NCBI GenBank assembly: GCA_026770585.1
Contig: MU646483.1
Coordinates: 121,146 to 153,976 of the forward strand
Length of the DNA: 32,831 nucleotides
Direction: 5' to 3'
Origin: Baffinella frigidus
Lineage: Eukaryota > Cryptophyceae > Cryptomonadales > Baffinellaceae
This document shows, piece by piece, positions 4,469 to 32,729 of the stretch (position 1 is its first letter; each line of letters starts with the position of its first letter). The notes beneath the pieces were generated by a model that was not told where the DNA came from, searched no databases, and saw only the letters and a list, made by a program, of their open reading frames with translations. The position numbers and the translations under genes are program-made.

Positions 4469-4549
4469 TTACTTCTTCTTCGGGGCGTTTTTGGCCTCGA
4501 GCGCCTCCAGGCGCGAGATATACGTCCGTTCCCGCTCCTCCAGCTCCAC
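4469..4549 (-). CDS. PPase exon 27 (tail and stop)
   Basis: Encodes [20 protein letters not shown], then NAPKKK and a TAA stop. The tail is predicted as a short coiled coil with a basic end. The acceptor ATCCAG is separated from exon 26 by a 121-nt intron made almost wholly of telomere-like repeats. Confidence 0.85.
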   Translation of the reverse strand: MELEERERTYISRLEALEAKNAPKKK

Positions 4550-7500
4550 CTGGATTAGGGGTTTTAAGGTTTAGGGTTTAGGGTTTAGGATTTAGTGTTC
4601 AGGGGTTAGGGTTTAGGGTTTAGGGTTTAGGGTTTAGGGTTTAGGGTTTAGGGCTGGAGGAGCGCACCACCCGCTTCTCGAGCTCCGCCTGCCGCTCGGC
4701 TGACTCCTCGAACCTGAAATGTTGCGGCTCGATCAGTACCCATTCCACACAGCGACGAGGGCATTTCGTGAATAAATCTCACGTGGATCATCCATAGGCC
4801 CTACGGTAGGCAATCCCTAGGTACGTAACGAGGGGGTTTTCCTAGGCCTATCCTGCCGCTCTGTCGACTCCTCGAAGCTGTTTGTTCGCGGCTCACTCAG
4901 TACTCGTCATCGCGGCTCACTCAGTACTCGTCATCGCGGCTCACTCAGTACTCGTCATCGCGGCCGCGATGACGAGTACTCAGTACTTCGGCTCACTCAG
5001 TACTCGTTGCTAGCCTCGCGATCGCCAAAGGGAGAGGGATGCCTCATGTCTCTAACAACCATATCAGGTTATGGTGGGGGTTAGGGTTTATGGGTCGGAG
5101 TTTAGGTGTGAGGGTTCAGGGGTCAGAGGTTGGAGTTTGGGGTTGAGGGTCTAGGGTTTCGGGTTTAGGGTTTCGTCTTTCGTGTTTAGGGTTTCGTTTT
5201 TCGGGTTGAGAGGGACAGACTTCATGCCGATGGAGAACCAGCGCTTGCGGCACTCGTCGATCCGACTCGTCGCGGCCGCCTTGTCCGACCACCCCGTCAC
5301 CTGCCCGCCCACCGCCATCGTCACACCACTCTCGTGCAAACTTCTACACGTCGATCCGCTTGCATTTAATTGCACACGGCTCAGGTACAAACGTATACTA
5401 TCGGAGTTTGAAAAGGCACTTGTCGATTTGGTTCGTCGCGGCCGCCTTGAAAGACCACCCCGTCACCTAGAGAATTCCCAAGGTTAGAGGACTTAATTGG
5501 ACGCGACTCTGGCATAAAAGCCTACGATCACAATCGCGCGTGCGGCACTCGTGGATCCGCGTCGACCACCCCGACACCTTCTGATGCCACAAGCTAACGC
5601 CAGCGGACCCCTTAGTCTACGGTAGGAACCCCCCCTCCTTCTACGACGTTGAAAACAAAAAGGTCCTTAAAAGTCGTAGGAAGGGGGCTCCTACCCTAGG
5701 CAATCCGTAGGCTCTAAGTACCTCGCTGGCGTCAGCTTTTGAGATGACTTCATGCCATGCCGAGACCCAACGTTATGAGGACGTATTTGAGTGCGACTCT
5801 TGAACTCACGTCTACTACCAGAGTTGATTCGGTTGGTCGCGGCAGCTTCGTCCGACCACCTCGTCACCGTGGTTTCGTGTTTCGTGTTTCGTGTTTCGTG
5901 TTTCGGGTTGAGAGTTGAGAGTTGAGGTGACCTTGGCCCAGACGTGGTTTCGCTCGAGAGCTTTGTAGGTGTTGAAGAACTCCTGCACCTCCTTCTTGAC
6001 ATGGATCGGGATCGTGTCCACGTCCAGGTACCTGTCACGTCCGATAAGCCGTCAGCATGATCGTCATCACGTCCCAACAGCCGCCATCACGACCGTCAAC
6101 ACGTCCCGGCAGCCGTCACCGCGCCCTCGGTCATGTCCCTAACCATCATGGACAATGAACGACGGCGTACACGCTCTCAAGTGCAGGTGTAGACACACTT
6201 ACATGGACAGTCCATCTTATGGAGCACGCCGCGTTGTCACGGCATGCCACACAGCGGACTTCGAAGGGGTTTCGAATAACCCCTCAGCAATAAGACCTGG
6301 GACCCTACGGTAGGCAATCCGTAGGAAGATAGGGGGGGTTCCTACGGACCAGGTAACGGGAACTCGGGCTCTCATAGCCCGAAAGTCCCTTCGAAGCCCG
6401 CTCTGTGGACTACTCCTATGACTACGCCCTCACACTCGATTCCATAGGTGTGTGTGTGTGTGGTAAGGTTATGAGGGATTGGTGTGGTGTGGTGAGGTTA
6501 TGAGGTGTGGTAAGGTTATGAGGGGGGGTGCGTACTCGGAGAGGCGGGGCTCGTCCTTAGGCACCCCGATGATCTTGGAGTTGGGCCCATTCTGATCCTC
6601 TGTGTTCAGCATCGCCACCACCCGCATCTGCAGGACACATTCACCATTACCACACGGTGGCCTACCAACCTTTCATCGAACGTCAACTTGCCTTGATGCA
6701 ATTAACTTTGAGGATTTTGTGGTGTAGTTTGGTCACGTACCCCCCTGGAATTCAGGCCCAACGAAACCTTCGAAGCCCACCGTGTGGGTAACACGCGCAA
6801 ATAAAGAGGAATTCTCCTTTAGAAACACGTACATAAAGAGGAATTATCCATCAGTAACGTGTAAATAAACAAGCACACAAAGGAACACCAATGATTTTAG
6901 TATTGGGCCTGTTCTGGTCCTCCGTGTCGGGCATCGCCACAACCCGCATCTGCAGTAGGGGTCATCTCGTTAGAAAAGCGTCAAGCCCTGGGACCCTTTC
7001 CTAAGGCAATTCTCGTGCAAAGCCAAACTCTCTAAGTTGTAAGAAGGAATTGATGTTAGAGTTGGGGCCGTTCCGCATCCGTGCAGCATGGCAGGGTTGT
7101 ATTTGAGGGGTCTTCCATGGGCGGTCTCACAAGTGCGCAGCCACACGGTGACACGTGCACCTCAACCACACAGCAGGCTTCCAATGCATTTTCGGCCCCA
7201 ATTGGGCCATCTTTCGTACCTAATCCGTTACCTTATCCGTAGGACCTCCCCATATTTCCTACGGGTTGCCCACCGTAGGGTCCTAGGTCTTGTCGCTTGA
7301 GGGTTATTCGAAATCGCTTCGAAGTGCGGTGTGTGGATTACCCTAACGCATTTCGGTGTGGGTGCACCTGGACGATCGTGCCGAGCGGAAGCGGAAATAC
7401 TGAGAGGCACACCACCTGGTCCAGGGTGTAGGCTTCAGGGTTGAGGGTTGATGCTTCAGGGCTGAGGTTTCTGGGTCCTGGGTTTAGGGTTCTGGGTTCT

Positions 7501-10064
7501 GGGTCCTGGGTTTAGGGGTCAGGTTTCAGGGTTTAGAGTTTAGGGTTTAGGGTTCAGGGTTCAGGGTTCAGGGTTCAGGGATTTAAGAGTTGGAGGGGGG
7601 GCGACCTCCACCGCGCGGCCGTCTTCGGCGAGGGTCTGCGGGAGGGAGCAGAAGTCGCCGGGATAGACCACTGCCGAGCACAGCACCTGCGATACGTTGT
7701 CAGGTGTCAGACGCAGAGAGCGGGAGAGTGAGGGAGAGGGAGGGAGGGAGGGAGGGAGGGAGAGTGGGAGGGAGAGGGATAGCGAGAGAGAGAAAGGCAC
7801 GATACAAACGAGCGCAGAGTACCTGCGGTGAGAGACGTGATCAGCACGGTACATCTCAGACGGAGAGAGAGACAGGGCGAGAGAGAGAGAGAGGATGTGA
7901 GGGAGGGAGTGAGGGGGGGAGGGAGGGAGGGAGATAGTGAATGGGATAGAGAGGAATAGAGAGAGAGAAAGGCACGATACGTTACTGTTTTCTGATCGAA
8001 CGAGAGGCGAGCACGTGCGAGACGCAAGGCGTGGTGAGCAAGGTGCTTCCGCCGGCATAGTGACGAGTTGAGGAAAGTGGTGTGGCGCATGGGGATGGAG
8101 CATACGTCGCCGGGGTAGACCACCGCTAAGCACAGTACAATCCAACGCGAGAACGTCACCCATGTACCACACAATATTCCTCAAATGCTGTTTCCGACGG
8201 AAGCATCTTCCTGGCCAAAACCGCTGCTGGACACTCTCAAGTACTTGAATAGGGCAACGGACTGCAAAACCGGGTGGTTAGGCCTACGGTATTGCCTACG
8301 GTAGGCCGTATGGGCCTAGGGGGGCTCCTACAAAAAAAACAGGTCCTAGGGGCCCTACGGCCTACCGAAGGCCTAACTACCCGGTGGTCAGTCCGTTATC
8401 CTATGCAATTAACCAGCACGGATGGAAGGCGAGTGAGCCTGAGAGGTGTATGCACCCCAGCAGCAGCGGAGAGGCCTGTGAGGTGTATGCAGCGCAGCAG
8501 GAGCTCTCTCTCTCCCTCTCTCTCTATCTCTCTCTCTGTCTCCCTGCCTCTCTCTGGGAGGCAGAAGCGAGTCCGTCTGAGAGGTGTTTGCACGGGAGCA
8601 GGAGCGGGGGGCCAGGGCAGGGTAAGCAGAAGGGGAATGAGGGGCAGACGGGGCGCAAGGGGGATGAGAGAGGCAAAGAGAGAGGGGGAGAGATAGGATG
8701 GGGGGGGGGAGAGAAAGGGAGAAAGATGGAGAGAGAGGGGGAGAGAGATACAGAGACGGAGATAGAGAGAGTGAGTCGGTGGGAGAGGGATTGTGGGGAG
8801 AGGAAGAGAGAGAGATAGGGGGGGGGGGGGGGGGGGGGGGGGAGAGAGTGAGGGGCAGACCTTGTCCATCTTGAGAAGGCCGACCTTGGGCAGCACGTCG
8901 TACCGCATGTTCGTCCCTGCTTCAGGCTTCATCATTTAGGGTTGAGGTTTTAGGTTTTGTGGTTTAGGGTTTAGGGGTTTAGGGTTGGGGGTTAGGCGTT
9001 TATGGCATAGGCAGGTCTAGGGTTTAGGGTTAGGTTTCAAGAATTGGGAGTTTAGGGTTAGGTTTTCAGGTCTAGCTAGGGTTTAGGGTTAGGTTTTAAG
9101 ATGGTTGAGGGTTAGGTTGTAAGATCTGGGAGGAGAAGCACCTTTCGATGCGCGGACGATCGCGTTGACCTGGTGGTTGGTTTTTGGTTCAGTGTCCACA
9201 CGGTCGACTACAAACCTTTCATCCAAAGTCAACTTACCTGAGGATAATAAAGTGGAGGCACGCCGTCGTAAGGGCCTTTCAAGGCGAGGCAAGCCACTGG
9301 AGGAGGACCTAACGAGCCTCCGGCGGCCCCTGCGGGGGGCTTGCTGCGCGACCCGAATCCCGGTCTTAAAAACAGGCGACCGGTCTAACCGACTTCTACC
9401 ACGCTCCAGAACGTCAACTTAAACCGGCAAAAGCGGACACTCTACCGTGACGGACTCGGTCACTTTTACGTACACCAACAACGTTTTAGCTCTGATCACC
9501 CCGGTACTAAAGTACGCTCCTCCCTGCCCGGTTTGGTCGGCCCTTCTGCTTGAATGGCAAAGTTGTTCGGTCACGTCCCGACTTCCTGGTACAAACTCAA
9601 CGGCCGTCAGCACTTGCTCGCCTTCTGCAGGATTCTGGGTCACGTCCGTCATCAGTGCGCCTGAGGCCCTTGAAAGGCCCAATTAAACTTAAGGATTTTC
9701 CAATGCAAATTGTGCACGTAACACCCCGGAATCCGGGGTCAATAAAACCCTCGTAGCCCACCGAGTGGTTAGGGTCTGGGGTTCTGGGTTTTATGTTTCA
9801 GGTTTCAGGTGTCAGGTGCAGGGTTCAGGGTCAAGGGTCCAGGGTTTAGGGTGTAGGGTGTAGGGTGTAGAGTGTAGAGTGTAGGGTGTAGGGTGCAGGG
9901 TCTCGGGTTCAAGGTTCAGGGTTTCGGGCTTCGGTTTTCGATTTTCGGGTTTAGGGTTTAGGGTTCGGAGACGAGGGTTTGCGGGTTGAGAGGTGGGTTT
10001 GTACGATGGCACGGGGTACGGCTTAGGGTTTAGGGTTTGTGGTTTAGGGTGTAGGGTGTAGGTT

Positions 10065-10095
<31 letters not shown>

Positions 10096-12081: not shown

Positions 12082-12133
<52 letters not shown>

Positions 12134-12483
12134 GATATAGATAGATAGATAGATAGATAGATACAAAGATGGATATAAAGATAGAGAGGGTGCGCATGTG
12201 AGGCGTGTCTTGCTATGCCTCTGTCGGGTTGATTCACTCACCATTTTTGACTGACCGGGAAATTAACGCCCGGTCTCAACCACTTTGGTGCGACGAGAGC
12301 GAGTGGGGCAGAGAGGAGATACATCAAAACATATAGATTGGGATATATACATATGTGTGTGTGTGTGTGTATATAAATATACATATATATATATAAAAAA
12401 ATGTGTGTATATATCTTTCTATCTATCTTTCTATCTATCTTTCTATCTATCTTTCTATCTATCTATTTATGTGTATATATATA

Positions 12484-12514
<31 letters not shown>

Positions 12515-12517
12515 GCA

Positions 12518-12581
<64 letters not shown>

Positions 12582-12819
12582 GGCATAGCGAGAAAGAGAA
12601 AGAGATAGCGAGAGAGATGTATATAAGTAGAGAGATGGATGGTGGTCGGACCCTGATGGTAGTGAACCTGGTCGTGTTGTGCGGCTGCCGCGACGGCTCG
12701 AGCCGTAGAGAGAGAGAGAGGCATGGCAAGAGCGAGAGAGAGAGAGAGAGAGGGAGAAACATAGAGGCATACAGATCGAGCGAGAGAGAGAGAGCAGCAT
12801 AGCGAGAGAGAGAGAGAGA

Positions 12820-12880
<61 letters not shown>

Positions 12881-24549: not shown

Positions 24550-24587
<38 letters not shown>

Positions 24588-27500: not shown

Positions 27501-27762
27501 GCCAAGATACATCTTTCCGAGAGGGAGAGGGGGGATGAGAGAGGAGCGACCTGATGGTCTTGTCGACGCGGGCCTCCTCGATCTGCACGTGGTGCCTGTT
27601 TGCGGCGAGCAGGCGTCACGGTCGAGTCTCTTTGGGAAATTGACATGCTTGCATGCGCGGGCAGCGAGATGCGAGATGAAATGTCATGCGAGATGAAATG
27701 TCGGTTGAGGTTTGGGGGGGTCGGGCGGTTCCAGGATCGGGTCCGGCGACGCACCTGTGCAT
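4469..27762 (-). CDS. Triple-domain soluble inorganic pyrophosphatase (family I), 27 exons
   Basis: Soluble PPase hydrolyses pyrophosphate to two phosphates using divalent metal ions. The reconstructed protein is 632 residues: a short N-terminus (1-37), PPase domain 1 (about 38-202), domain 2 (203-409), domain 3 (410-591) and a charged coiled-coil tail ending in APKKK. In E. coli PPase numbering, domain 1 keeps E20, K29, E31, R43, Y55, D65, D67, D70, D97, D102, K104, Y141 and K142 (here E45, K53, E55, R67, Y79, D89, D91, D94, D121, D126, K128, Y163, K164). Domain 2 keeps the same set (E229, K237, E239, R251, Y263, D273, D275, D278, D305, D310, K312, Y347, K348). Domain 3 is degenerate. The domains are treated as one gene because exons splice across both domain junctions in matching phase and the only stop is at 4469-4471. 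Donors are GT, except one GC; acceptors are CAG. The start exon is the weakest part. An alternative is three adjacent genes whose ends I have mis-joined. Confidence 0.82.
4550..4670 (-). repeat. Telomere-like intron 26
   Basis: TTTAGGG-type repeats on the plus strand fill nearly the whole 121-nt intron between PPase exons 26 and 27. On the sense strand it reads CCCTAAA up to the acceptor. Confidence 0.85.
4671..4713 (-). CDS. PPase exon 26 (coiled-coil tail)
   Basis: Reads [14 protein letters not shown], a charged helical segment after the PPase fold. Acceptor TTTCAG, donor GTGGTG. A 5'-edge echo lies at 4851-4900. Confidence 0.8.
4746..4850. mobile_element. Family 1 element, right end missing
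   Basis: Starts CCACACAGCGACGAGG and continues to the GGCCCTACGGTAGGCAATCC core and a G tract, then loses homology. It lies in intron 25. Confidence 0.6.
4885..5010. repeat. CGGCTCACTCAGTACTCGTCAT tandem repeat with an inverted unit
   Basis: Several direct units of about 24 bp, then an inverted unit (CGATGACGAGTACT), then a direct one. It adjoins the exon 26 echo at 4851-4900, whose GCGGCTCACTCAGTACT flank resembles the repeat unit. Confidence 0.75.
5221..5300 (-). CDS. PPase exon 25 (end of domain 3)
   Basis: Encodes [20 protein letters not shown], then WFSIGM, the closing GW helix. Acceptor GGGCAG. The donor AA|GTCTGT gives the phase needed by exon 26. Three 5'-edge echoes lie upstream at 5427-5468, 5541-5582 and 5816-5868. 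Confidence 0.88.
5427..5868 (-). repeat. Three 5'-edge echoes of PPase exon 25
   Basis: Decayed copies at 5427-5468, 5541-5582 and 5816-5868 match the acceptor and first codons of exon 25 (GTGACGGGGTGGTC and following GCGGCCGCGACGA). All lie upstream of the true exon on the sense strand. A family 3 element sits between two of them. Confidence 0.8.
5593..5736. mobile_element. Family 3 MITE-like element
   Basis: GCTAACGCCAGCGGACCCC left end and CTCGCTGGCGTCAGC right end. The centre AACAAAAAGGTCCTTAAAAG is flanked by CCTCCTTCTACGACG and its complement. It is very similar to 29597-29740. Confidence 0.88.
5932..6031 (-). CDS. PPase exon 24 (domain 3, YK helix)
   Basis: Encodes [20 protein letters not shown], then [14 protein letters not shown]554 and K555 match Y141 and K142. 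Acceptor TGACAG, donor GTCACC. Short repeats built on the acceptor sequence extend upstream to about 6135. Confidence 0.92.
6247..6408. mobile_element. Family 1 MITE-like element
   Basis: CCACACAGCGGACTTCGAAG left end and CTTCGAAGCCCGCTCTGTGG right end, with the CCCTACGGTAGGCAATCCG core. It lies in intron 23. Confidence 0.9.
6536..6627 (-). CDS. PPase exon 23 (domain 3, metal site)
   Basis: Encodes [18 protein letters not shown], then [13 protein letters not shown]97 is kept as D512, D102 is Asn517 and K104 is kept as K519. Acceptor CTGCAG; donor GTACGC within GAGTAC, so exon 24 completes Glu-Tyr. Two 5'-edge echoes lie at 6889-6954 and 7037-7084. Confidence 0.9.
6652..6789. mobile_element. 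Family 5 MITE-like element, short form
   Basis: CACACGGTGGCCTACCAACC left end and CGAAGCCCACCGTGTGGG right end; contains ACCTTTCATCGAACGTCAAC. It shares both ends with the 572-bp copy at 9196-9767, so it looks like an internal-deletion form. Confidence 0.75.
6889..7084 (-). repeat. 5'-edge echoes of PPase exon 23
   Basis: 6889-6954 reproduces CTGCAG and then ATGCGGGTTGTGGCGATG with scattered changes and would read [18 protein letters not shown]. 7037-7084 is a shorter, more decayed copy. Both lie upstream of the true exon. Confidence 0.85.
7165..7336. mobile_element. Family 1 element, opposite orientation
   Basis: CCACACAGCAGGCTTCCAA to GAAGTGCGGTGTGTGG with ACCGTAGGGTCCTAGGTC inside. It lies in intron 22. 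Confidence 0.85.
7368..7415 (-). CDS. PPase exon 22 (domain 3)
   Basis: Reads [16 protein letters not shown], fitting VLVLMQEPVLPGCFLRA of plant PPases without a gap. Acceptor GACCAG follows degenerate CCCTAAA repeats; donor GTGCAC; phase 0 at both ends. Confidence 0.85.
7428..7590. repeat. Degenerate telomere-like tract
   Basis: Mixed TTTAGGG, TTCAGGG and TTCTGGG units upstream of the exon 22 acceptor on the sense strand. Confidence 0.8.
7606..7686 (-). CDS. PPase exon 21 (domain 3, degenerate signature)
   Basis: Encodes [20 protein letters not shown], then EDGRAVE. This is the signature region, but DxDPxD has become DGRAVE: D480 is kept, while D67 and D70 positions are Arg482 and Glu485, and Y55 is Phe470. 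Acceptor TCGCAG, donor GTCGCC, phase 0. Confidence 0.88.
7723..8165 (-). repeat. GA microsatellites carrying 5'-edge echoes of exon 21
   Basis: GAGAGA/GAGGGA tracts. Echoes of the acceptor and first codons of exon 21 occur at 7796-7836 and about 8096-8142, the latter preserving a VVYPGD-like reading. Confidence 0.7.
8271..8384. mobile_element. GGTTAGGCCT hairpin element
   Basis: CGGGTGGTTAGGCCTACGG and GGCCTAACTACCCGG form long complementary arms around a short A-rich loop. The arms include CCTACGGTAGGCCG, the core motif shared with families 1 and 3. Confidence 0.8.
8507..8842. repeat. CT and GA microsatellites ending in a 20-plus G run
   Basis: CTCTCT at about 8507-8560, GAGAGA/GGGGAGA to 8818, then an unbroken run of more than 20 G before GAGAGAGTGAGG. 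Confidence 0.9.
8861..8916 (-). CDS. PPase exon 20 (domain 3)
   Basis: Reads (G)[18 protein letters not shown], matching KVKYELDKKTGLIKVDR. Catalytic K29, E31 and R43 positions are Arg444, Asp446 and Lys458. Acceptor AAGCAG follows telomere-like sequence; donor GTCTGC. Confidence 0.87.
8936..9115. repeat. Telomere-like tract
   Basis: TTTAGGG and TTTAGGTTTT variants beside the acceptor of exon 20. Confidence 0.85.
9142..9169 (-). CDS. PPase microexon 19 (domain 3)
   Basis: A 28-nt exon reading VNAIVRASK and one base of Gly. It fits NVVVEISKG of plant PPases, but the catalytic Glu (E20) position is Arg436. Acceptor CACCAG, donor GTGCTT. Confidence 0.83.
9196..9767. mobile_element. Family 5 element, long form
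   Basis: CACACGGTCGACTACAAACC left end and CCTCGTAGCCCACCGAGTGG right end, 572 bp. The last part (AATTAAACTTAAGGATTTTC onward) and the first part match the 138-bp copy at 6652-6789. The middle is open for 80-90 codons in more than one frame, but I recognise no transposase. Confidence 0.65.
9775..10137. repeat. Telomere-like tract with a 3'-edge echo of exon 18
   Basis: Long run of TTTAGGG, TGTAGGG and TTGAGGG units. At 10085-10137 it ends in a decayed copy of exon 18's donor side ([12 protein letters not shown]-like reading). Confidence 0.8.
10154..10315. mobile_element. Family 1 MITE-like element
   Basis: CCACACAGCGGACTGCGAAG to CTTCGAAGCCCGCTGTGTGG with the GGACCCTACGGTAGGCGATC core and a CGGGCTCTCAGAGCCCG inner palindrome. 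It lies in intron 18. Confidence 0.92.
10521..10582 (-). CDS. PPase exon 18 (start of domain 3)
   Basis: Reads (D)[30 protein letters not shown] lines up with LEIGPGAPTL of plant-type PPases just before strand 1. Acceptor TTCGCAG, donor GTTAAC. A 5'-edge echo (10873-10895) and a 3'-edge echo (10085-10137) flank it. Confidence 0.83.
10873..10895 (-). repeat. 5'-edge echo of exon 18
   Basis: Sense strand reads TTGTTCGCAG followed by ACGGTC, matching the GTTCGCAG|ACGGG acceptor of exon 18. Confidence 0.6.
10962..11304 (-). repeat. 3'-edge echoes of exon 17 with two heat-shock-element-like palindromes
   Basis: Copies of the exon 17 donor side (CATTCCCTCCCCCG|GT-like) at 11240-11270, 11124-11145 and 11010-11036. 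Between and beside them are GAACATTCTAAAACAAACTA-GAATGTTC (10962-10990) and GAACATTCTAGAGCAATCTA-GAATGTTC (11276-11303). Confidence 0.7.
11332..11401 (-). CDS. PPase exon 17 (end of domain 2)
   Basis: Encodes [20 protein letters not shown] then PSP, the GW helix that closes the fold. The acceptor AATCAG directly follows CCCTAAA repeats; the donor is GTACCT. It ends in phase 1 and joins exon 18 as Asp, so domain 2 reads into domain 3. Three 3'-edge echoes follow at 11240-11270, 11124-11145 and 11010-11036. Confidence 0.88.
11571..11708. mobile_element. Family 5 element, opposite orientation
   Basis: CACACTGCGGCCTTCCAAGG to GGTTCGTAGTCAACCGAGTGG. Contains AAGTTGACTTTTGATGAAAGG, the complement of the family 5 left part. 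Confidence 0.65.
11795..11925. repeat. Inverted-repeat segment
   Basis: CTCAAATAGTCTTC near 11790 pairs with CACTATTTGAGG near 11915, and GCATCTACCTCAGATCTGGGGTAGATGC forms an inner hairpin. Non-coding; no other copy seen. Confidence 0.5.
12028..13045. repeat. Dense microsatellite block with 3'-edge echoes of exon 16
   Basis: CA, CT, TA, GATA, TTTC, TG, GA and GCAC repeats in succession. Embedded at 12649-12700 and 12893-12943 are decayed copies of the exon 16 donor side (CGAGCCGTCGCGGC...ATCAAG|GTCCG). Confidence 0.9.
13065..13126 (-). CDS. PPase exon 16 (domain 2 insert)
   Basis: Reads (E)[20 protein letters not shown], a basic segment. Its KFATIK end sits where domain 1 has KWVKIR. Acceptor GGGCAG, donor GTCCGC. 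Two strong 3'-edge echoes at 12893-12943 and 12649-12700 mark the donor; a 5'-edge echo near 13815-13845 marks the acceptor. Confidence 0.75.
13645..13805. mobile_element. Family 1 MITE-like element
   Basis: Degenerate left end (GGACACCGGACTTCGAAGGG) and intact right end CCGCTGTGTGGGG; core GGACCCTACGGTAGGCGATC. It lies in intron 15. Confidence 0.88.
14155..14640. repeat. Telomere-like and TTTCGGG tracts on both sides of exon 15
   Basis: TTGAGGG and TTTGAGG units at 14155-14260, TTTCGGG units at 14310-14450 and TTTAGGG units from 14521. Confidence 0.85.
14462..14513 (-). CDS. PPase exon 15 (domain 2 insert)
   Basis: Reads [17 protein letters not shown]. The DLE continues the YKDLE motif; the rest is an insertion absent from E. 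coli and from the other two domains. The acceptor follows CCCTAAAACCTAAACC-type sequence. The chosen donor ATGG|GTGTCA gives the phase exon 16 needs; the alternative AAG|GTCCGA would end at 14454 but breaks the frame. Confidence 0.65.
14779..15424 (-). repeat. Five 3'-edge echoes of exon 14
   Basis: Decayed copies of the exon 14 donor side, readable as QFFETYK-like peptides, at 14779-14826, 14880-14920, 14984-15025, 15108-15152 and 15378-15424. They are separated by TTTCGGG tracts and a GA microsatellite (15205-15372). All are downstream of the true exon on the sense strand. Confidence 0.9.
15488..15586 (-). CDS. PPase exon 14 (domain 2, YK helix)
   Basis: Encodes [20 protein letters not shown] and then [14 protein letters not shown]347 and K348 match Y141 and K142. 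Acceptor TGGCAG, donor GTGACT, phase 0. It has two 5'-edge echoes upstream, as part of a larger triplication, and five 3'-edge echoes downstream. Confidence 0.93.
15590..16045 (-). repeat. Tandem triplication of intron 13's 3' end plus the start of exon 14
   Basis: Units of roughly 180-205 bp each carry the exon 14 start (echoes at 15704-15765 and 15910-15970), then GACTGTGCGTGCGTATATGA, ACGTGT-type blocks and TACGTATATTTCAC. The first unit is the real exon. Confidence 0.9.
16045..16330. repeat. CATATA hexamer repeat and telomere-like tract
   Basis: About nine CATATA units at 16045-16102, then GGGTATG, TTCAGGG, TTTAGGG and TTTCGTG units. Confidence 0.9.
16336..16731 (-). repeat. 3'-edge echoes of exon 13
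   Basis: 16686-16731 reads GEDQKLVA-like before GGTACC; 16336-16390 preserves MADATRK..NLLA-like sequence. Both are downstream of exon 13 on the sense strand. Confidence 0.8.
16797..16873 (-). CDS. PPase exon 13 (domain 2, metal site)
   Basis: Encodes (G)[18 protein letters not shown] followed by EDQKLLA. D305, D310 and K312 match D97, D102 and K104. Acceptor ATACAG, donor GTAAAC. It spans the segment that exons 6 and 7 share in domain 1, so the three domains do not have identical intron positions. Confidence 0.93.
16880..17560 (-). repeat. Minisatellite built from the exon 13 acceptor edge
   Basis: Many units of about 30-45 bp combining CACGGACGCGATCAGTCACG with TCCGCCAT(C)GTCCCTG. The latter is the complement of the exon 13 acceptor and first codons. 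A longer echo with GATCCGCACGTCGGCCATCG is at 17027-17062. Confidence 0.85.
17575..17910. repeat. GGTCTAGAAGGG minisatellite with a 3'-edge echo of exon 12
   Basis: 10-12 bp units GGTCTAGAAG / GGTCTGGAAG before and after an echo at 17718-17785 that preserves [13 protein letters not shown]-like sequence. Confidence 0.88.
17913..18016 (-). CDS. PPase exon 12 (domain 2 signature, DGDPLDI)
   Basis: Encodes [20 protein letters not shown], then [15 protein letters not shown]273, D275 and D278 are the metal-binding aspartates. Acceptor ACTGCAG, donor GTAATT. Phases join exon 11 as Ser and exon 13 as Gly. Confidence 0.94.
18096..18160 (-). repeat. 5'-edge echo of exon 12
   Basis: Sense strand preserves GCAGTACGATCTTCCACCCG and a TLCGDGDP-like reading, with small deletions that break the frame. 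Upstream of the true exon. Confidence 0.85.
18246..18392. repeat. GAA trinucleotide tract
   Basis: About 145 bp of imperfect AAG/GAA repeats with CAG interruptions. Purine-rich on the plus strand, hence TTC on the PPase sense strand. Confidence 0.95.
18909..18984 (-). repeat. 3'-edge echo of exon 11
   Basis: Near-complete copy of the exon 11 donor half, including the CTCGACCGCGTCCTCCACAG edge before GT, with an internal deletion. Confidence 0.85.
19071..19168 (-). CDS. PPase exon 11 (domain 2, first strands)
   Basis: Encodes [18 protein letters not shown], then [15 protein letters not shown]229, K237, E239 and R251 match E20, K29, E31 and R43. Acceptor ACGCAG, donor GTCCTT, ends in phase 2. 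A nearly full-length 3'-edge echo sits at 18909-18984. Confidence 0.92.
19344..19403 (-). CDS. PPase exon 10 (start of domain 2)
   Basis: Reads [20 protein letters not shown]. It corresponds to the HPWHDLEIG-like lead of plant-type PPases just before the first strand. Acceptor AAAGCAG follows CCCTAAACC-type repeats; donor GTGCCA; phase 0 at both ends. A 5'-edge echo lies at 19551-19578. Confidence 0.8.
19415..19578 (-). repeat. Telomere-like tract plus 5'-edge echo of exon 10
   Basis: TTTAGGG/TTCAGGG units to 19545 followed by an echo of the exon 10 acceptor (GCGCAG then GTGGGTAATGT on the sense strand) at 19551-19578. Confidence 0.8.
20024..20051. repeat. Perfect hairpin
   Basis: GTAGACTGTGGT and ACCACAGTCTAC around a four-base loop. 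Located in intron 9; no other copy seen. Confidence 0.8.
20388..20441 (-). repeat. 3'-edge echo of exon 9
   Basis: Copy of the donor half of exon 9 (AAGGAGCTTCAGGCC and ATCAAGATGTTCGACGAGAA on the sense strand) directly followed by a family 1 element. Confidence 0.85.
20434..20580. mobile_element. Family 1 element, shortened left end
   Basis: GCGGACTCCAATAACCC to GGTAGCCCGCTGTGTGG with GGACCCTACGGTAGGCAACC inside. It lies in intron 9 between an echo and exon 9 itself. Confidence 0.8.
20594..20686 (-). CDS. PPase exon 9 (end of domain 1)
   Basis: Encodes [20 protein letters not shown] and then [11 protein letters not shown], the C-terminal W..GW helix of the fold (E. coli KWVKVEGWENAEAAKAEI). 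Acceptor GCGCAG, donor GTACCC, phase 0. There is no stop in frame at its end, so domain 1 reads on into domain 2. Confidence 0.9.
20861..20909 (-). repeat. 5'-edge echo of exon 9
   Basis: Sense strand GCGCAG, then ACGCCGACGTGGGTGAAGAT, close to the true exon start; upstream of it. Confidence 0.88.
21324..21407 (-). CDS. PPase exon 8 (domain 1, YK helix)
   Basis: Encodes [20 protein letters not shown] and then KSLESSPT. It matches E. coli [27 protein letters not shown]; Y163 and K164 correspond to Y141 and K142. The acceptor follows a telomere-like CCCTAAACCTAAACCAG run; the donor is GTCAGT. Confidence 0.93.
21690..21935. repeat. CCCT/CTCTC microsatellite
   Basis: CCTCCCTCC and CTCTCTC repeats. 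Unlike most tracts here it is pyrimidine-rich on the plus strand, opposite to the PPase sense strand. Confidence 0.95.
22166..22690 (-). repeat. TAGTGTTA minisatellite with three 3'-edge echoes of exon 7
   Basis: Echoes at 22166-22196, 22345-22400 and 22543-22571 preserve the exon 7 donor edge (CGAGC...TCGTCGGGTGTCATG). Each is followed by TATAGTGT or TTCAGTGT repeat tracts. Confidence 0.9.
22735..22803 (-). CDS. PPase exon 7 (domain 1, metal site)
   Basis: Encodes [17 protein letters not shown] and then RSSGVM. D121, D126 and K128 match catalytic D97, D102 and K104. Acceptor GCGCAG, donor GTCTGC, phase 0 at both ends. It has one 5'-edge echo and three 3'-edge echoes, the clearest example of the echo pattern in this gene. 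Confidence 0.92.
23203..23243 (-). repeat. 5'-edge echo of exon 7
   Basis: Sense strand CCCAG, then GACGAGAAGGGGGGCGGCAC, matching the exon 7 start; upstream of it. Confidence 0.9.
23400..23550. repeat. Arm of a large inverted pair with 24810-24990
   Basis: GGGTTATTAAATTATGTACCAGTCACGGG here meets CCCGTGACTGGCAC and ACACCCCATTTAAAATAGT in inverse order there. Another related fragment is at 30115-30160. Confidence 0.5.
23728..23902. mobile_element. Family 1 element, opposite orientation
   Basis: CCACACAGCGGGCTACGAAG to AAATCCGGTGGGTGGG with TTACCGTAGGGTCCTAGGTC inside. It lies in intron 6. Confidence 0.88.
23901..24205 (-). repeat. 3'-edge echoes of exon 6
   Basis: 24000-24036 (GTCATGGACATGGCGGCACG on the sense strand) is near-identical to the true donor side. 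23901-23935 is shorter. A third, more diverged copy lies within 24104-24205. All are downstream of exon 6. Confidence 0.75.
24289..24332 (-). CDS. PPase exon 6 (domain 1)
   Basis: Reads (G)[14 protein letters not shown], matching E. coli SVIRCRPVGVLKMT. The acceptor is GGCAG. The phase-consistent end is GAG|GCACGT, a GC donor, which places the next exon's DEKGGD exactly where E. coli has DEAGED. Confidence 0.82.
24445..24595. repeat. GT and GA microsatellite
   Basis: GAGTGAGTG, GTGTGT and long GAGAGA tracts after a run of ten G. Confidence 0.95.
25103..25228. mobile_element. Family 1 element, right end lost
   Basis: CCACACAGCGGACTTCGAAG and core GGCCCTACGGTAGCTAG, then GGTTCCCACGGATAAGG. 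Homology stops before the right terminal repeat. Confidence 0.8.
25300..25362 (-). repeat. 3'-edge echo of exon 5
   Basis: CTCTCACCCCTG|GTTTAC on the sense strand at 25341-25360 repeats the exon 5 donor (CTCTCACCCCCG|GTTTGC), inside a G-rich repeat. Confidence 0.75.
25419..25505 (-). CDS. PPase exon 5 (domain 1 signature, DGDPIDV)
   Basis: Carries [19 protein letters not shown] followed by [17 protein letters not shown] is the family I PPase signature; D89, D91 and D94 are the metal ligands. Acceptor TGCAG, donor GTTTGC. Joining exon 4 gives YPGDYGF without a gap. Confidence 0.93.
25575..25768 (-). repeat. Intron 4 minisatellite starting at the donor
   Basis: About six units of 30-34 bp (GGACGCTTCAGTT...GTGCATAAC). 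The last unit runs directly into the exon 4 donor GTACGTCCCTTATGCACACC, so the array is a repetition of the intron's first bases. Confidence 0.85.
25771..25887 (-). CDS. PPase exon 4 (domain 1, first strands)
   Basis: Encodes [15 protein letters not shown] and then [17 protein letters not shown] to HYPG. This matches the family I PPase N-terminal beta region. E45, K53, E55 and R67 correspond to E. coli E20, K29, E31 and R43. Acceptor GGGCAG, donor GTACGT. It starts with two bases of a Gly codon and ends with one. Confidence 0.9.
26333..26604 (-). repeat. 3'-edge echoes of exon 3
   Basis: 26581-26604 (TGTCTGCGTCTCAG|GTACC) and 26333-26375 (CCCAAAACGTCTCAG|GTCCG) repeat the exon 3 donor edge. 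The second opens into a longer reading [18 protein letters not shown] that could be mistaken for an exon. Confidence 0.7.
26612..26815. repeat. CTCTCG microsatellite
   Basis: CTCTCG, TCTCTG, CACACA and GCTCTC repeats, ending beside the exon 3 donor. Confidence 0.95.
26818..26876 (-). CDS. PPase exon 3 (N-terminal lead into domain 1)
   Basis: Acceptor ACCCAG and donor GTGCCC. It reads as [18 protein letters not shown] and ends in phase 1, joining exon 4 as Gly. Its edges are marked by echoes: a 5'-edge copy upstream at 26938-26964 and 3'-edge copies downstream at 26581-26604 and 26333-26375. Those copies support this exon over the downstream look-alike. Confidence 0.62.
26938..26964 (-). repeat. 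5'-edge echo of exon 3
   Basis: Sense strand GCAG, then GCGGGGCAGCGTCGGCGAAG, close to the true GCGGGCAGCGTTGGCCAAG; upstream of the exon. Confidence 0.8.
27070..27140. repeat. Short inverted repeat of the AGCTCTGCCTGAGT type
   Basis: CAGCTCTGTCTGAGTAGGG and CCAACTCAGGCAGAGCTAG form arms about 30 bp apart. Related TCTAGCTCTGCCTGAGTA stretches occur near 29532, 30182 and (inverted) 30290 and 30430. Confidence 0.6.
27551..27595 (-). CDS. PPase exon 2 (N-terminal extension)
   Basis: Acceptor AACAG and donor GTCGCT. It reads [14 protein letters not shown] and ends in phase 2, joining exon 3 as Arg. The acidic/basic helix-like peptide lies before the PPase fold and has no assigned function. It is supported by phase agreement on both sides but not by homology. 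Confidence 0.5.
27755..27762 (-). CDS. PPase exon 1 (start codon, tentative)
   Basis: ATGCACAG followed by the donor GTGCGT. It ends in phase 2, which is exactly the phase exon 2 needs. It encodes Met-His and the first two bases of Arg. The call rests only on an ATG next to a good donor in the right phase; a different upstream start exon is possible. Confidence 0.4.
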
Positions 27763-28947
27763 GGTGTCTTATTCGCTGTCTTCTCAGACGATGATCTGCG
27801 ATGAGGCCAGGGAAATGAGATTCCAAAACACACCGCTTGCTCTACCCTGTTCGCACATCAGGATCTGCATCTGCTGTGACCGCGTGCATGCCGTCGATCC
27901 TAGCGGATCGCTTGACCCAAGCCCGGGAAAAGACGCACTGCGTGCTCATGGCTGGATCTGTGCTCGGATCCTCGCTGTTGGGCAATAGCGTTTTCCCTCC
28001 CGAGCGTTCGTGTTTGGAGGATCCTGGCTCACGCGCCGGTCCATGCACGGAAATATGGGAGCGGCCGGGGAAGGTTTCGCGCGACCGAGCTTGCGTGGAA
28101 TCTATGCGACGGCACGGATCCGGGCGTCTGCCGGGAAGATACCTGGAGACGGGGGGGGGACAGAGATCGAAACGGTGGATCGGAGAGTTTGTGTTCTTAT
28201 CTACTTTTGACTGTTTGAGAACAAAAGTCAACTCTTGATTGGAGCCATTTGAAATTTCAAAGTCGGTTTGCTTGGGGCGGCGGCGTTCTCGGGGCACCAC
28301 AGGAGACCCGGGGCAACGACAATCTTCGTGTTTCATCTGGGATTGAGCGTCGAAGCGGCAGTTTTTGATCCAGGATGACGACTGCGATGCCGGGCACGAT
28401 GCTCGCAGGTAGTTTCCCATGAAGCAGCCGAATTTTGGTGGAAGTGAGGGGGGAGCGAATGGGCGGGCCGGCGGGTGCGTGAGCGGAATGGCAACGGTGA
28501 AGTAGTACGTGGGGTAAGAATGTGGCTGGTTGGGGTCGGGGTGGGCACCGTTTGAGGTGCTGGTGCTGTTGAGTACGAGGCTGCGATTCGGACTTGCAGC
28601 CTGCCGCCCGCACATCCTGGTTGGTGTCAGGCTGTGGAGGACGCGATTCTTTTCTCTGGGTGAAAATGTCGGGGTCTGCGGATCGGGGAGCGGGGTACCG
28701 GCCCTCTGGCCTTTTTCTCAAGCGAAGAGGGGGGGCTGCAGCATTGCAGCGCAGCGTGTTATTATGTCAGACGGGGCTTGAGGCGGAGGTGGCGGTCGTC
28801 ACTTCGTCGTCACTTCGGCACTTGCACGAAGCGCCCATTCGATACAATCAGTACCCGCGCGCCGCAGCAGGGACATGGTGCGCGCAGCAGAACCCCGACG
28901 CCGGAGCAGCAGGCACTGACGCTCGCTCCTTTCCGGCAGGCACGGTG
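27763..28947. promoter_or_regulatory. Head-to-head intergenic region (candidate bidirectional promoter)
   Basis: Lies between the divergent start codons of the PPase and IFT70 genes. It holds 5' untranslated sequence and presumably both promoters. I see no TATA box that I would trust. It is the longest stretch free of microsatellites, telomere-like repeats and MITEs in the right half of the window. A TTTTGACTGTTTGAGAAC / AAAAGTCAA inverted repeat lies at 28204-28234. Confidence 0.5.
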
Positions 28948-28983
28948 ATGCCAGGCGGAGCAAACGGCGCGTTTCTGAACCAG
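28948..28983 (+). CDS. IFT70: IFT70 exon 1 (start)
   Basis: ATG then PGGANGAFLNQ, followed by the strong donor GTGAGC. In length and position it matches the short N-terminus of animal TTC30 before the IPDG motif. Supported by phase and position rather than homology. Confidence 0.7.
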
Positions 28984-31900
28984 GTGAGCCCCCCCCCGGC
29001 GTCGGGCAGCACTCGGGGCTCGATCAAAATGCAGGGACCGTATCACTTCCCAGGGGGGTGGCGCGGGGAAATGAGCTGAGCGAACAGTGTGAGGAATTGT
29101 TTTCCTCTCTGAAGCAGCTCGCCGCTGGTGAGAGTGTGGCGTTTCAGTGGTGACGCTCGCGAGGAGACCTGTGCGCGTGCGTGTGCGCATCGCTGCGTGC
29201 TTGCCCCGCGTGCACTTGGTCTAGCTCTGCCCCAGTTACTTGGGCTCCCCACTAAATACATTTCGATGCTCTTTGTACTGCAGCGTGTGTACGGAGTCCT
29301 GATCTATGTATATTCAATAAGGAGCACAGATGACGTGAGGGTGAGCTAGACGGCGCAGCGTGCTCTGACGCAAGACGTGGTTGTCCGACTATTCTCAAGT
29401 TGACACTGGACCAAGGCGGGGTTGAGTGACTATTCTCAAGTTGACACTATTCTCAAGTTGACACTGAAACGAGGCTCCCGTACCAAGAGCAGATCCATGG
29501 CGGGCAGATGACCGTGGCCGCCTAGCTCCGTCTCAGTCTAGCTCTGCCTGAGTAGAACTGGGCTCGTCCTGGCGCGCGTGCACACTAATGCCAGCAGCTA
29601 ACGCCAGCGGGCCCCTTAGCCTACGGTAGAAACCCCCCCTCCTCCTACGACGTTTAAAACAAAAAGGTCTTAAAAGTCGTAGGAGGGGGGGCTCCTACCG
29701 TAGGCAATCCGTAGGCTCTAAGTACCTCTCTGGCGTTAGCTTTTTGCATGAACACGGTGCCAGCGTGCGAAGAGCACACGGCTCAAGTTGAATATTGTCC
29801 CTCTCGCACTGAAGAAAGCGTATCGACTGCAGATCCAGGACGGGCAGATGACGGTGACCGTCTACTCGCTCATCCGCGAGGAGAAATTCTCCGAGGTCGG
29901 CTTACACACAACCAAATAATTCCTAGCTGTCGGCTTACACGCAATCCACGAATTCGTCCGACACGCTTGCAGGCCTAGCTCCGCCTCACCACACGAGGCT
30001 ATCTATGCGAACAGATTCCTAAGTCAATTATTGGATTATTGCCCAGGAAACACGCCAAAAGCCAGCAATTGGTCACGTGGCGCCCGAAAAGCGGGCGCCA
30101 CGTGACCAATTTTCAATGAAAATTACTACACACGTTTGAAATAGTCATTTATTATGTTCGCATGGGTGGCCTCGTGTGACAGTCTAGCTCTGCCTGAGTA
30201 AGACTGGCCTCGCCATGAATGTATTTGAGTTTAGTGTTGAAGTTTTGAACTAGAGCGTCCGGTCTAAATATATTTGGTGAGCCGAGTTTGACTGAGGCAG
30301 AGCTATTCGAGCCGTCTCCACTGAGCGGAGCTCTCCAACTTGGTGTGCCCGGGCTCTTTCCCGCTCAAACGTTGACGGATTTGTACCGTGAAGCCGGAAT
30401 GGTAACTTGAGAAATAGTCAGTCAACCCGAGTGAGGCAGAGCTAGAACTCCGCCGCAGGCGCCTTCACTAAGCGGGGGGGACGTGCGGATGTTCCAGACT
30501 CCACAACTACTGTTGACTCAACTGAAGCACAGTTGACTGAACCTCCAACCGCTGTTCTCTGAACCACGCAGGGTCTGCACCCACCAAAGCGGAAACCAAA
30601 CCAGGAAGGGAGAGGACTGCCACAGAAGTGTGAAAGTAGTCAAATTTCGCGACTCTCGGGTGCTTGCCGGGGACCTGACCTTGGCGCACACCTCTGCAGA
30701 GGTAGCGTCCAGCTCCGAGTCAACCCAGGCCTCTTCAGGCGGGAGAACACGGCCATCCACTTAGCAGCCACCGGGGGCTTCACGGACAGGGTCCATCTAA
30801 ACTATTTGTACTAGAATCTGACCCATCGCCCAAGAACCCAACCGAAATTGCACCTTGAATTTAAGGTGAAGAGGTCCTCGGTCGCTGCTAAGTGGGTGGT
30901 AGTGACGCGATTCGACGCGTGCTTTCACTGCTGGAGTAGGGTTTTCTCAACCCGAGGTGTAGGGTTCGCATTAACCCTGTACCCTAAACCATGAACCATG
31001 CATAATAAAAACTGCACCCTACACCCTAAACCTTAAACGCTACATCCTAAACCCTAAACCCTAAACCCTAAACCCTAAACCCTAAACCCTAAACCCTAAA
31101 CCCTAAACCCCAACCGCTACACAGGCGATCACGGTGCTAAACAACCAGCTACAGTGGTTCCCGCGTGTAGCGTTCAGGAACCCCTTCACCCTACACCCTA
31201 CACCCTACACCCTAAAACCTAAAACCTGAACAAACTCTAATCCCTCCACAGAGGCGATCACCGTGCTTCACAACCAGCCAAAGTGGTTCCCTTTTCGCCA
31301 GCAGTGTAGGGCCTACACCCTCAGCCCTGATTCCTAATCCTTAACCCCTAATCCCTCCGCGCAGGCGATCACGGTGCTGAGCAACTAGCTACTGTGGTTC
31401 CCTGTTCGCTGGTGGTGTAGGGCCAACCCGACACCCTACACCCTACACCCTACACCCTACACCCTACACCCTACAACCTAAACAAACCCTGATCCCTCCA
31501 CACAGGCGATTACGGTGCTGAACAACCAGCTACAGTGGTTCCCGCGGTCGCGTGCCGCGCTCTCGCTCCTCGCTTACTGCTTCTACCAGATTCAGGACTT
31601 CAATTCGGTACCTACCCTCTCCATTCTCGCCCACTGCTTCTACCCTACCAGATCCAAGGACTTGAACAGTGTGCAGCTTCTACGGTTTCGCGTACCGAGC
31701 AATTCTGGATCGTGTTCCCTCTCGCTCCTCGGTTGCTGCTTCTACCAGATTCGGGACTGCAATTCGGTACGCCGCAAAAGTATTCATTAATTGTTTTTGG
31801 CGCAACGAAATTTACCACACAAATGCTTCACTATTACTAGTACCACACGGTGGACTACGAGAGTTTCGTTGTGAGGCAGAGGGGCCCCTAAAACCCCTAA

Positions 31901-32729
31901 ACCCCCAACCCTAAACCCTAAACCCTAAACCCGTAAACCCTCAATCAGGCGTCTGACAAGCACGCGATGCTGTGCCTCTCTCGTGCCAACTGCCGCCCTA
32001 TCTTACCATATCCTGCTGACTGTCGCCCTATCCTACCAGCTGACGCCATATCCTGCCAACCTAATCTGCCGGGTGGTTTGGCAGGCGTCTGACAAGTACG
32101 AGATGCTCTGCCGGTCTTTCCCAGAAGTGGACGAGTACAAGTTCTACTACGCCCAGTCGCTTTACAAGGCCGCGCTTTACGAACAGGTTGCGAGCCTCTC
32201 TCTCGCTCGCTCTCTCTATCTCTCTCTCTCTCTCTCTCTCTCCTGGGAGAGCGGTCCTTGAGAATATGGTGAGCCAGTGAGATTCATTCGTATGACTTTT
32301 GGAAGAAATGAGGTTACTACTCGCAAAAGTTAGTTTTACTTCAGACTCCATTCTGCAAAACTGAGTCCTTTTCAAATGTACGAGAGTTATTGAAAGAGTC
32401 GCATCCGCAAAACGGCCACCTCAGGTGTGTCCAACACGCACAGCCTCAAAATTATTAATGTGTGCTTGATGTAGTAACAAATGTCTCTCACGTAACTGAA
32501 GGACAGGGCGGAGCGACGGGGAGGGGGACTGGTGGGGAGGCGCAGCATTGATGGTCAAACAGAAGCATTGATGGTCAAAACTGACGCACGGGAGGTCGCC
32601 CTCTCTGGACGCCTCAAGTTAATGGTCCACGAGATATGTTGAATGAAAGTCTCTCTCGCACGACAGGCGACGCGGGCGTGCACGTGGATCGAGAACGAGA
32701 CCTACCGCCAGAAGAAACTCAACCTCCAG
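28948..32729 (+). CDS. IFT70: Intraflagellar transport protein IFT70 (TTC30), 5' part, runs off the window
   Basis: IFT70 (TTC30, DYF-1, fleer) is a TPR-superhelix subunit of the IFT-B core that carries cargo along cilia. Five exons give 122 codons in one frame. Recognisable family segments are the IQDGQ..VYSLIREEKFSEA start, the NNQLQWFPRSRAALSLLAYC TPR helix, YEMLCRSFPEVDEYK, FYYAQSLYKAALYEQ and the WIENETYRQKKLNLQ stretch. These correspond to RSPRSRAGLSLLGYCYY and YxxQALYKACLYPEA of animal TTC30. The start ATG at 28948 is the only one that gives a short N-terminus, a GTGAGC donor and the right phase. The rest of the gene lies past the window end. It is divergent from the PPase gene, with ATGs about 1.2 kb apart. 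Confidence 0.88.
29493..29520 (+). repeat. 5'-edge echo of IFT70 exon 2
   Basis: GAGCAG, then ATCCATGGCGGGCAGATGAC, matching ATCCAGGACGGGCAGATGAC of the true exon; the reading soon hits a stop. Upstream of the exon. Confidence 0.9.
29597..29740. mobile_element. Family 3 MITE-like element
   Basis: GCTAACGCCAGCGGGCCCC to CTCTCTGGCGTTAGC, 144 bp and almost the same as 5593-5736. It lies in IFT70 intron 1. Confidence 0.9.
29833..29895 (+). CDS. IFT70: IFT70 exon 2
   Basis: Encodes IQDGQMTVTVYSLIREEKFS and E, the first helices of the family. Acceptor CTGCAG, donor GTCGGC, phase 0. A 5'-edge echo sits at 29493-29520 and a donor-side echo at 29929-29945. Confidence 0.88.
30067..30113. repeat. Long perfect hairpin with CACGTG in both arms
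   Basis: TTGGTCACGTGGCGCCCG and CGGGCGCCACGTGACCAA around an AAAAG loop; the arms extend further with AATT. Located in IFT70 intron 2. Confidence 0.9.
30960..31115. repeat. CCCTAAA telomere-like tract, sense orientation for IFT70
   Basis: Begins as degenerate ACCCTAAACC units and ends with about eight perfect AACCCTA units just upstream of the first exon 3 echo. Confidence 0.95.
31125..31410 (+). repeat. Three 5'-edge echoes of IFT70 exon 3
   Basis: 31125-31173, 31254-31300 and 31365-31410 each start after AG with GCGATCAC(G/C)GTGCT and repeat AACCAGCTA-C-GTGGTTCCC. The third has an in-frame TAG. Spacing to the true exon is 129, 111 and 141 bp; CCCTA-type units fill the gaps. Confidence 0.93.
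31506..31607 (+). CDS. IFT70: IFT70 exon 3
   Basis: Encodes AITVLNNQLQWFPRSRAALS, then LLAYCFYQIQDFNS, the first full TPR. Acceptor CACAG, donor GTACCT. It is the only intact copy among four acceptor-side copies; two donor-side copies follow. Confidence 0.93.
31618..31770 (+). repeat. Two 3'-edge echoes of IFT70 exon 3
   Basis: About 31618-31670 (CTCTCCATTCTCGCCCACTG, then CTTCTACC...CAGATCC) and 31712-31770 (CTCTCGCTCCTCGGTTGCTG to AATTCG|GTACGC). Both copy the donor half only and lie downstream of the exon. Confidence 0.92.
31949..31983 (+). repeat. 5'-edge echo of IFT70 exon 4
   Basis: ATCAG, then GCGTCTGACAAGCACGCGAT, matching GCGTCTGACAAGTACGAGAT of the true exon; preceded by CCCTAAA repeats. 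Confidence 0.9.
32085..32186 (+). CDS. IFT70: IFT70 exon 4
   Basis: Encodes ASDKYEMLCRSFPEVDEYK, then FYYAQSLYKAALYEQ. Acceptor TTGGCAG, donor GTTGCG, phase 0. A 5'-edge echo is at 31949-31983. Confidence 0.94.
32667..32729 (+). CDS. IFT70: IFT70 exon 5 (last visible)
   Basis: Encodes ATRACTWIENETYRQKKLNL and Q, matching the IENPAYHxxVLKLQ stretch of TTC30. Acceptor CGACAG. The end is set at CAG|GCACCC, a GC donor followed by a CT-rich intron; this boundary is less sure because the sequence stays open in frame. Confidence 0.82.

Follow-up and report, generated by a model that had tools for sequence, protein, structure and literature searches.

Exon-edge copies in adjacent introns of two Baffinella frigidus genes, probable relics of local tandem duplication

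Why should an intron carry decayed copies of the end of its neighbouring exon, and of the end that faces it? The question is raised by a stretch of 32,831 nt from the cryptophyte Baffinella frigidus (the window, G000:C181:121146-153976), which is bounded by runs of N in a gapped assembly of 382 Mb and 1364 contigs and has no internal gap. It holds an inorganic pyrophosphatase (PPase) gene on the minus strand (exons E1-E28) and the start of an IFT70 gene on the plus strand (exons X1-X5). An original prediction, made from the letters of the window, described partial exon copies in the introns of both genes, polarised by side, and ascribed them to tandem duplication. Examination of these copies, here called echoes, establishes the polarity and supports that interpretation in part.

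Echoes lie beside the exon edge that they copy

Smith-Waterman alignment of the 32 exons of at least 20 nt (E1, of 8 nt, was excluded) with every intron of their own gene, on both strands and at a score of at least 32, yielded 35 echoes. All 35 are direct and lie in an adjacent intron, 18 upstream and 17 downstream of their exon. Matches occur in 21 of 61 adjacent exon-intron pairs and in none of the 688 non-adjacent pairs of the same gene, where the best score was 29 (Fisher P 4e-25), while first-order Markov versions of the adjacent introns gave 1 match in 2440. Anchoring at the edge facing the intron is found in 34 of 35, against 4.4 expected and a maximum of 14 in 200,000 random placements. 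Upstream echoes begin at exon nt 1-3 in 17 of 18 cases and downstream echoes stop no more than 7 nt from the exon end in 17 of 17. None of the 35 lies on the wrong side, with no upstream copy reaching the exon end and no downstream copy the exon start. The copied exon part measures 23-69 nt, and the distances between exon and echo, within one existing intron, are 9-665 nt. The exon-edge echo pattern is real.

Other forms of copying were considered and set aside. Exon-interior copying has a single case among the 35, nt 37-60 of E26. Whole-exon copying, or duplicated alternative exons, is represented by none, as no copy among the 35 contains both exon edges. Inverted copies, which templated end joining could produce, are absent from the 61 adjacent pairs under reverse-complement alignment of the window exons; one appeared in the raw scan of 39 segments of other genes described below, and none once exon borders were set.

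A laxer scan combined a score of at least 28 with queries spanning at most 60 nt of exon and 6 nt of intron. It gave 23 donor-query matches downstream and 23 acceptor-query matches upstream. Twelve further rows on the other side represent, by our reading, the echo of the opposite edge overlapping the 60-nt query, and, on the same reading, three of the four matches in non-adjacent introns fall on echoes of the paralogous exon in another PPase domain. Individual predictions fared well at these thresholds. The two upstream and five downstream copies of E15 (then numbered exon 14) and the three and two of X3 were recovered as described, and the one and three of E7 were recovered at a score of at least 28 (one and two at 32). 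For E3, predicted to have one and two, one copy on each side was found at 28, the second downstream copy being visible by eye only. The statement that most exons are echoed holds at 28, where our count is 18 of 33 exons, and fails at the stricter 32, where it is 15 of 32.

The copies are decayed, as had been noted, with identities of 78-98% (median 88%), seven indels in the 35 alignments and a stop codon in 1 of 29 ungapped echoes; because the scan favours well-preserved copies, the stop and indel counts understate decay.

Other genes of the same genome, to which the original prediction proposed to extend the check, also carry echoes, as kinesin and chaperonin (CCT) genes show. Coding segments were located with Pfam kinesin and Cpn60/TCP1 models and taken with 1500-nt flanks, some of the loci sharing one gene and overlapping. 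The raw scan of 39 segments gave 47 direct matches and 1 inverted match. A weight matrix trained on the window then served to set exon borders; L033, L035 and L052 were excluded as borderless (L052 had five raw echoes), which left 36 segments with 42 direct and no inverted matches in 15 loci. One of these, L056, proved to be an echo within the L049 gene, and without it there are 40 matches in 14 of 35 loci. With a tolerance of 6 nt for upstream and 9 nt for downstream matches, 16 of 22 and 15 of 18 respectively are anchored at the edge, and none reaches the wrong edge; the nine unanchored matches may reflect wrong borders or be real exceptions. Ten segments of MCM genes gave six matches, all anchored and none inverted. 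The MCM pair L062/L068 has a 98% exon-edge copy that ends at a run of N, and discounting both leaves 1 of 8 segments (L064, with four matches).

Such near-identical echoes beside gaps may partly be assembly artefacts. As an explanation of the echoes at large, overlaps left unmerged at exon borders, or haplotypes mixed there, are extremely improbable. The gapped assembly, the position of the window between runs of N and the L062/L068 copy are what such an artefact would lead one to expect, but the window itself is free of internal gaps, its echoes show the divergence and indels given above, they stand up to five deep with differing spacers, and their nearly even decay is not predicted by faulty assembly.

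Origin of the echoes

The echoes were probably left behind by short, local tandem duplications that recurred across exon-intron borders. The original prediction had named this process, and the direct, adjacent and side-matched arrangement of all 35 agrees with it. The duplicated units, about 100-300 bp where measurable, would have one end in the exon and the other in the neighbouring intron. Only the copy still attached to the rest of the exon would splice properly and be retained by selection. The spare copy, stuck in the intron of the same side with part of an exon and one splice site, would not be seen as an exon and would decay neutrally. At a donor border the first copy would remain functional and leave spares downstream, and at an acceptor border the last copy would do so and leave spares upstream. 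A unit that took in the entire exon, its two splice sites included, would enter the mRNA and then be purged, so that edges alone persist. The geometry of border duplication and selection on splicing would thus account for the polarity, the anchoring at edges, the direct orientation and the absence of whole-exon copies. On this argument from geometry and splicing, polarity would need no special mechanism. We infer that the duplicating step was break repair or slippage and that exon definition acts in the manner argued.

Support for duplication across the border comes from the intron beside the copied edge. Exon-side and echo-side intron were compared in 60 echo pairs from the window and the kinesin and CCT loci, the cut-off being the 95% point of a null in which flanks of different exons were randomly paired, which about 3 of 60 are expected to pass by chance. 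The intron flank belongs to the repeated unit in 29 pairs (15 of 32 upstream, 14 of 28 downstream), and clear tandem units measure 206 bp at E15, about 204 bp in L050 and 252 bp in L054.

Several observations weigh against this account. No intron flank homology is detected in the other 31 of the 60 pairs, about half, a feature that the original prediction missed. Across 15 donor and 17 acceptor pairs of the window (32 of the 35 echoes), the final 10 exon nt have an identity of 0.89-0.92 and intron positions +1/+2 one of 0.88-0.90; at +5 to +10 it has dropped to 0.33-0.50, and past +20 to 0.23-0.34, in an ungapped profile that indels depress even over homologous flanks. Third codon positions, a neutral yardstick, are 81% identical, and a recent plain tandem unit should leave more flank identity than that profile has. 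Acceptor-side echoes of the kinesin and CCT genes drop likewise, while donor-side echoes remain alike to about +10. Identity also lacks a steady fall with distance; by our count the nearest echo is closer in sequence than the farthest at 5 of 9 multi-echo window edges, so no claim is made that the nearest echo is the youngest.

The distribution of local repeats cuts both ways. Array-masked direct repeats at a distance of at most 700 nt were found for 14 of 32 window exons. In favour of local duplication, they also occur in intron segments set apart from exons and identified echoes (9.6% of 500, though several fall in echo regions) and in none of 200 intergenic segments. The higher rate at window exons counts against the account, the simulated loss of detection for intron-only pairs being just about 26-36%. 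Without masking, the figures are 13% of 400 intron and 3.3% of 150 intergenic segments. Kinesin and CCT exon segments show no clear excess, with 14 of 28 against 34 of 82 masked and 46 of 112 unmasked shifted controls, which contain undelineated exons and echoes. Enrichment of duplication at exon borders is thus likely in the window and unproven in general. A tally of 50 near direct repeats, 33 touching exons, 16 intron-only and 1 intergenic, had suggested duplication only at exon edges; the segment controls weaken this, and no such claim is made.

The missing flank homology could be due to DNA inserted next to the exon afterwards, to removal of the outer flank or to breakage at the splice junction. 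Fast array turnover alone is not favoured as the cause of the sharp ends, the DNA beside exon and echo often differing in kind by eye. A search with the E27-E28 region, with the aim of finding an allele lacking the duplication and with 40 of 2283 candidates scored, returned the region itself and array-like matches.

The spacers between exon and echo are often arrays or pieces of mobile elements. Among array ends listed with Tandem Repeats Finder and merged by hand, 24 of 108 come no farther than 30 nt from an exon edge, where 8% would be expected. Telomere-like arrays in the introns follow the direction of transcription, another feature absent from the original prediction. Exact CCCTAAA is in sense in 79 of 82 cases within the two window genes (63 against 3 in PPase, 16 against 0 in IFT70) and occurs once in the 5.6 kb outside them. 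Across 49 partly overlapping kinesin, CCT and MCM loci (L013-L021, L028-L057, L059-L068) the count is 514 sense and 28 antisense, 13 of the latter in the single locus L033. A sense TTTAGGG, with AG then G, resembles an acceptor and might, as a guess, be removed by selection for that reason; the acceptors actually used here are CAG, not TAG.

These spacers and the missing flanks bear on a different origin, insertion coupled to the splice junction. In each event the two nicks of a staggered break would lie about 30-70 bp apart, one of them at the junction, and repair with filler (a telomere-like array, a microsatellite or a piece of a mobile element) would leave an edge, a spacer and a copy of the edge. 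RNA-DNA hybrids ending at exon borders, or excision of transposon-like introns, are ideas for what could place the nick. Besides the 31 pairs lacking homology past the splice site and the many window pairs that share just about 2-9 intron nt, the position of array ends and the length of the copied exon part agree with such an event. Precedents have been published. Small tandem duplications form where nicks on opposite strands leave 43-bp 3' overhangs that are filled in by telomere-linked CST/Pol alpha-primase (PMC8355091); these are likewise short, direct and local, with a duplicated tract of the same order as the overhang, but there the breaks are induced, whereas here each gene has numerous copies across its exon borders, fixed and decayed, about half without homology past the splice site. 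In mammals, telomeric repeats are inserted at breaks, sometimes with target duplication (PMC2246262). The arrays here resemble them in placing telomere-like repeats away from chromosome ends, and differ in being degenerate, concentrated in introns and oriented with transcription. Insertion at the junction is nevertheless unlikely, since the intron lies within the unit in 29 of 60 pairs, donor echoes of the kinesin and CCT genes stay alike to about +10 and the age order is inconsistent.

A broader form of this idea, that introns grow by accretion at their own splice sites through transcription- or splicing-linked staggered breaks and filler repair (with telomere-like repeats, for example), 25-70 bp of edge being copied per event, is decidedly unlikely. 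If it were true, exon edges would be mutational hotspots and introns would archive past splice-site breaks.

The pattern of substitution bears on whether the echoes have a function. Mismatches between exon and echo number 37/488, 41/490 and 92/480 at codon positions 1, 2 and 3 (7.6, 8.4 and 19.2%), and 81 of 170 (48%) are silent against 25% expected. Differences between echoes of one exon number 43/262, 37/261 and 50/255 (16.4, 14.2 and 19.6%), in pairs that are not independent and a tally dominated by the five E15 copies. Where at least two echoes agree against their exon, the changes private to the exon number 0, 2 and 8 at positions 1, 2 and 3. On the simplest reading, the echoes would decay neutrally and the exon would drift at silent sites. 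The silent excess was briefly read as constraint, a reading dropped because the echo-echo differences are nearly flat; their slight third-position excess gives no sign of coding constraint on the copies.

That echoes act as alternative or decoy splice sites under selection is accordingly a very improbable reading of these sequences. Many echo splice sites score in the range of real ones, and GT is retained in 14 of 17 echoes and AG in 14 of 17, but this is about what we estimate for neutral decay at some 8% divergence; the silent excess, which might otherwise favour function, is explained by exon drift, and the echoes are part exons without a second splice site. The original suggestion that echoes feed alternative or shifting splice sites thus appears unsupported because echo-echo differences are nearly flat over codon positions.

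Gene models and other features of the window

Rebuilding of the PPase gene gave 28 exons whose 653 codons and stop join in frame, with introns that are all GT..AG except for one GC donor. The 653 residues include three PF00719 stretches, the third part scoring 124 bits by itself. The protein P0002, named inorganic pyrophosphatase from Baffinella frigidus, matches exons E2-E8 with 94-100% identity over the exon parts by our reading, mismatches occurring where the alignments overrun exon ends. P0002 covers the first domain only and goes out of frame after E8 (again by our reading), apparently through a frame error in its gene model. The first 122 residues of IFT70 were modelled, and residues 12-111 match PDB chains 8bd7_C (named IFT70) and 4uzy_A. 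Of 32 donors in the window, 29 carry G at -1 and 2 are GC, with little signal past GT; acceptors are CAG in 30 of 31, followed by G in 25 of 31.

A dispersed element resembling a miniature inverted-repeat transposable element (MITE), with ends near CCACACAGCGG...CCGCTGTGTGG, was recognised by eye. No match was found in phage records, and its core pattern was unmatched in viral contigs. The intron preceding E24 contains a second MITE-like kind. In the left intergenic part, at 1005-1127, 2610-2728 and 3644-3766, are three long hairpins that belong to a single family and have arms of 37-50 nt (TACAGGGGTACCTCGCTCATAAGAAAC). Homopolymer G/C runs of 20-25 lie at 1-20, 8818-8842 and 32807-32831, the two terminal runs bordering N gaps.

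Table 1. Genes, echoed exons, echoes and dispersed elements of the window. Echoed exons rest on the gene model and echoes on exon-versus-intron alignment (score at least 32); upstream and downstream denote the intron holding the echo.
Feature	Position	Strand	Exon nt copied	Identity	Basis or remark
PPase gene, E1 (27755-27762) to E28 (4469-4549)	4469..27762	-			gene model, protein match; three PF00719 stretches
IFT70 5' end, X1-X5 (28940-28983, 29833-29895, 31506-31607, 32085-32186, 32667-32729)	28940..32729	+			gene model
Exon E7	22735..22803	-			source of 3 echoes
E7 echo, upstream	23208..23237	-	1-30	83%	
E7 echo, downstream	22351..22398	-	22-69	92%	
E7 echo, downstream	22549..22571	-	47-69	96%	
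Exon E9	20594..20686	-			
E9 echo, upstream	20860..20900	-	1-41	90%	
E9 echo, downstream	20395..20441	-	47-93	89%	truncated MITE-like element in spacer (by eye)
Exon E12	19071..19168	-			
E12 echo, downstream	18912..18957	-	53-98	98%	
Exon E13	17913..18016	-			
E13 echo, upstream	18095..18152	-	3-63	86%	
E13 echo, downstream	17725..17783	-	44-102	95%	
Exon E14	16797..16873	-			
E14 echo, upstream	17025..17060	-	1-36	94%	
E14 echo, upstream	17447..17471	-	1-24	96%	
E14 echo, downstream	16699..16724	-	45-70	92%	
E14 echo, downstream	16342..16380	-	39-77	79%	
Exon E15	15488..15586	-			
E15 echo, upstream	15911..15965	-	1-55	95%	within the 206-bp tandem unit
E15 echo, upstream	15707..15758	-	2-53	88%	
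E15 echo, downstream	15381..15420	-	60-99	95%	
E15 echo, downstream	15110..15149	-	58-97	88%	
E15 echo, downstream	14980..15017	-	64-99	86%	
E15 echo, downstream	14882..14923	-	59-99	83%	
E15 echo, downstream	14782..14822	-	58-98	85%	
Exon E17	13065..13151	-			
E17 echo, downstream	12896..12945	-	38-87	94%	
E17 echo, downstream	12654..12703	-	36-85	86%	
Exon E19	10521..10582	-			
E19 echo, downstream	10097..10134	-	25-62	87%	
Exon E22	7606..7686	-			
E22 echo, upstream	8092..8138	-	1-47	83%	
Exon E24	6536..6627	-			
E24 echo, upstream	6881..6949	-	1-69	78%	
Exon E26	5221..5300	-			
E26 echo, upstream	5415..5466	-	1-52	85%	
E26 partial echo, upstream	5536..5559	-	37-60	92%	sole unanchored echo among 35
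E26 echo, upstream	5823..5867	-	1-45	80%	
Exon E27	4671..4713	-			
E27 echo, upstream	4852..4876	-	2-26	88%	
Exon X2	29833..29895	+			
X2 echo, upstream	29493..29524	+	1-32	84%	
Exon X3	31506..31607	+			
X3 echo, upstream	31125..31173	+	1-48	94%	
X3 echo, upstream	31254..31291	+	1-38	84%	
X3 echo, upstream	31365..31402	+	1-38	89%	contains stop
X3 echo, downstream	31617..31666	+	55-98	84%	
X3 echo, downstream	31719..31766	+	55-102	92%	
Exon X4	32085..32186	+			
X4 echo, upstream	31949..31976	+	1-28	89%	
MITE-like element copies	about 1385-1560, 3838-4000, 6230-6410, 7160-7340, 10145-10320, 13640-13800, 23715-23920, 25105-25230				by eye

Known systems and meaning

Among open-licence PMC papers, and with the wording used, no description of such exon-edge copies was found. 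The excerpted text of PMC12220804 does not name Baffinella, and the excerpted main text of the introner paper PMC9860276 does not name cryptophytes; a term search of PMC5874029 likewise gave nothing. Relatives of the pattern include routes of intron gain. In the potato RdRp gene, a tandem duplication across an intron-exon border gave rise to an intron (PMC4974935). There too the duplicated segment crosses the exon-intron border and splice signals are reused, but that one event made a new intron, whereas none is seen here and the existing intron just lengthens. The same paper describes a model in which an exon segment containing AGGT is duplicated and a new intron arises from it. Exon sequence winds up in an intron in both cases; the model yields a new intron, while echoes sit within the existing one. 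Nor do coordinates in the window show the copy of the upstream exon end abutting the downstream exon that the model entails, as illustrated by the E9 echo at 20395-20441 and E10 at 19833-19862. Introners are copies of mobile elements, some families having 3-9 bp target duplications (PMC9860276). They share with echoes a mass change of introns, but echoes copy 23-69 nt of the adjacent exon, a length that does not correspond to target duplications of 3-9 bp.

About four in ten examined exons carry partial copies of their edges, up to five deep on one edge. Gene finders may be misled, as echoes can score as exons; kinesin matches with in-frame stops at C506:56113-56226 and C112:294252-294374 suggest this. 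The genome of Baffinella frigidus would be a dense natural record of duplication over splice borders, opening questions about how introns lengthen, how splicing disregards partial exons close by whose splice sites are intact, and whether exon borders attract a concentration of breaks.

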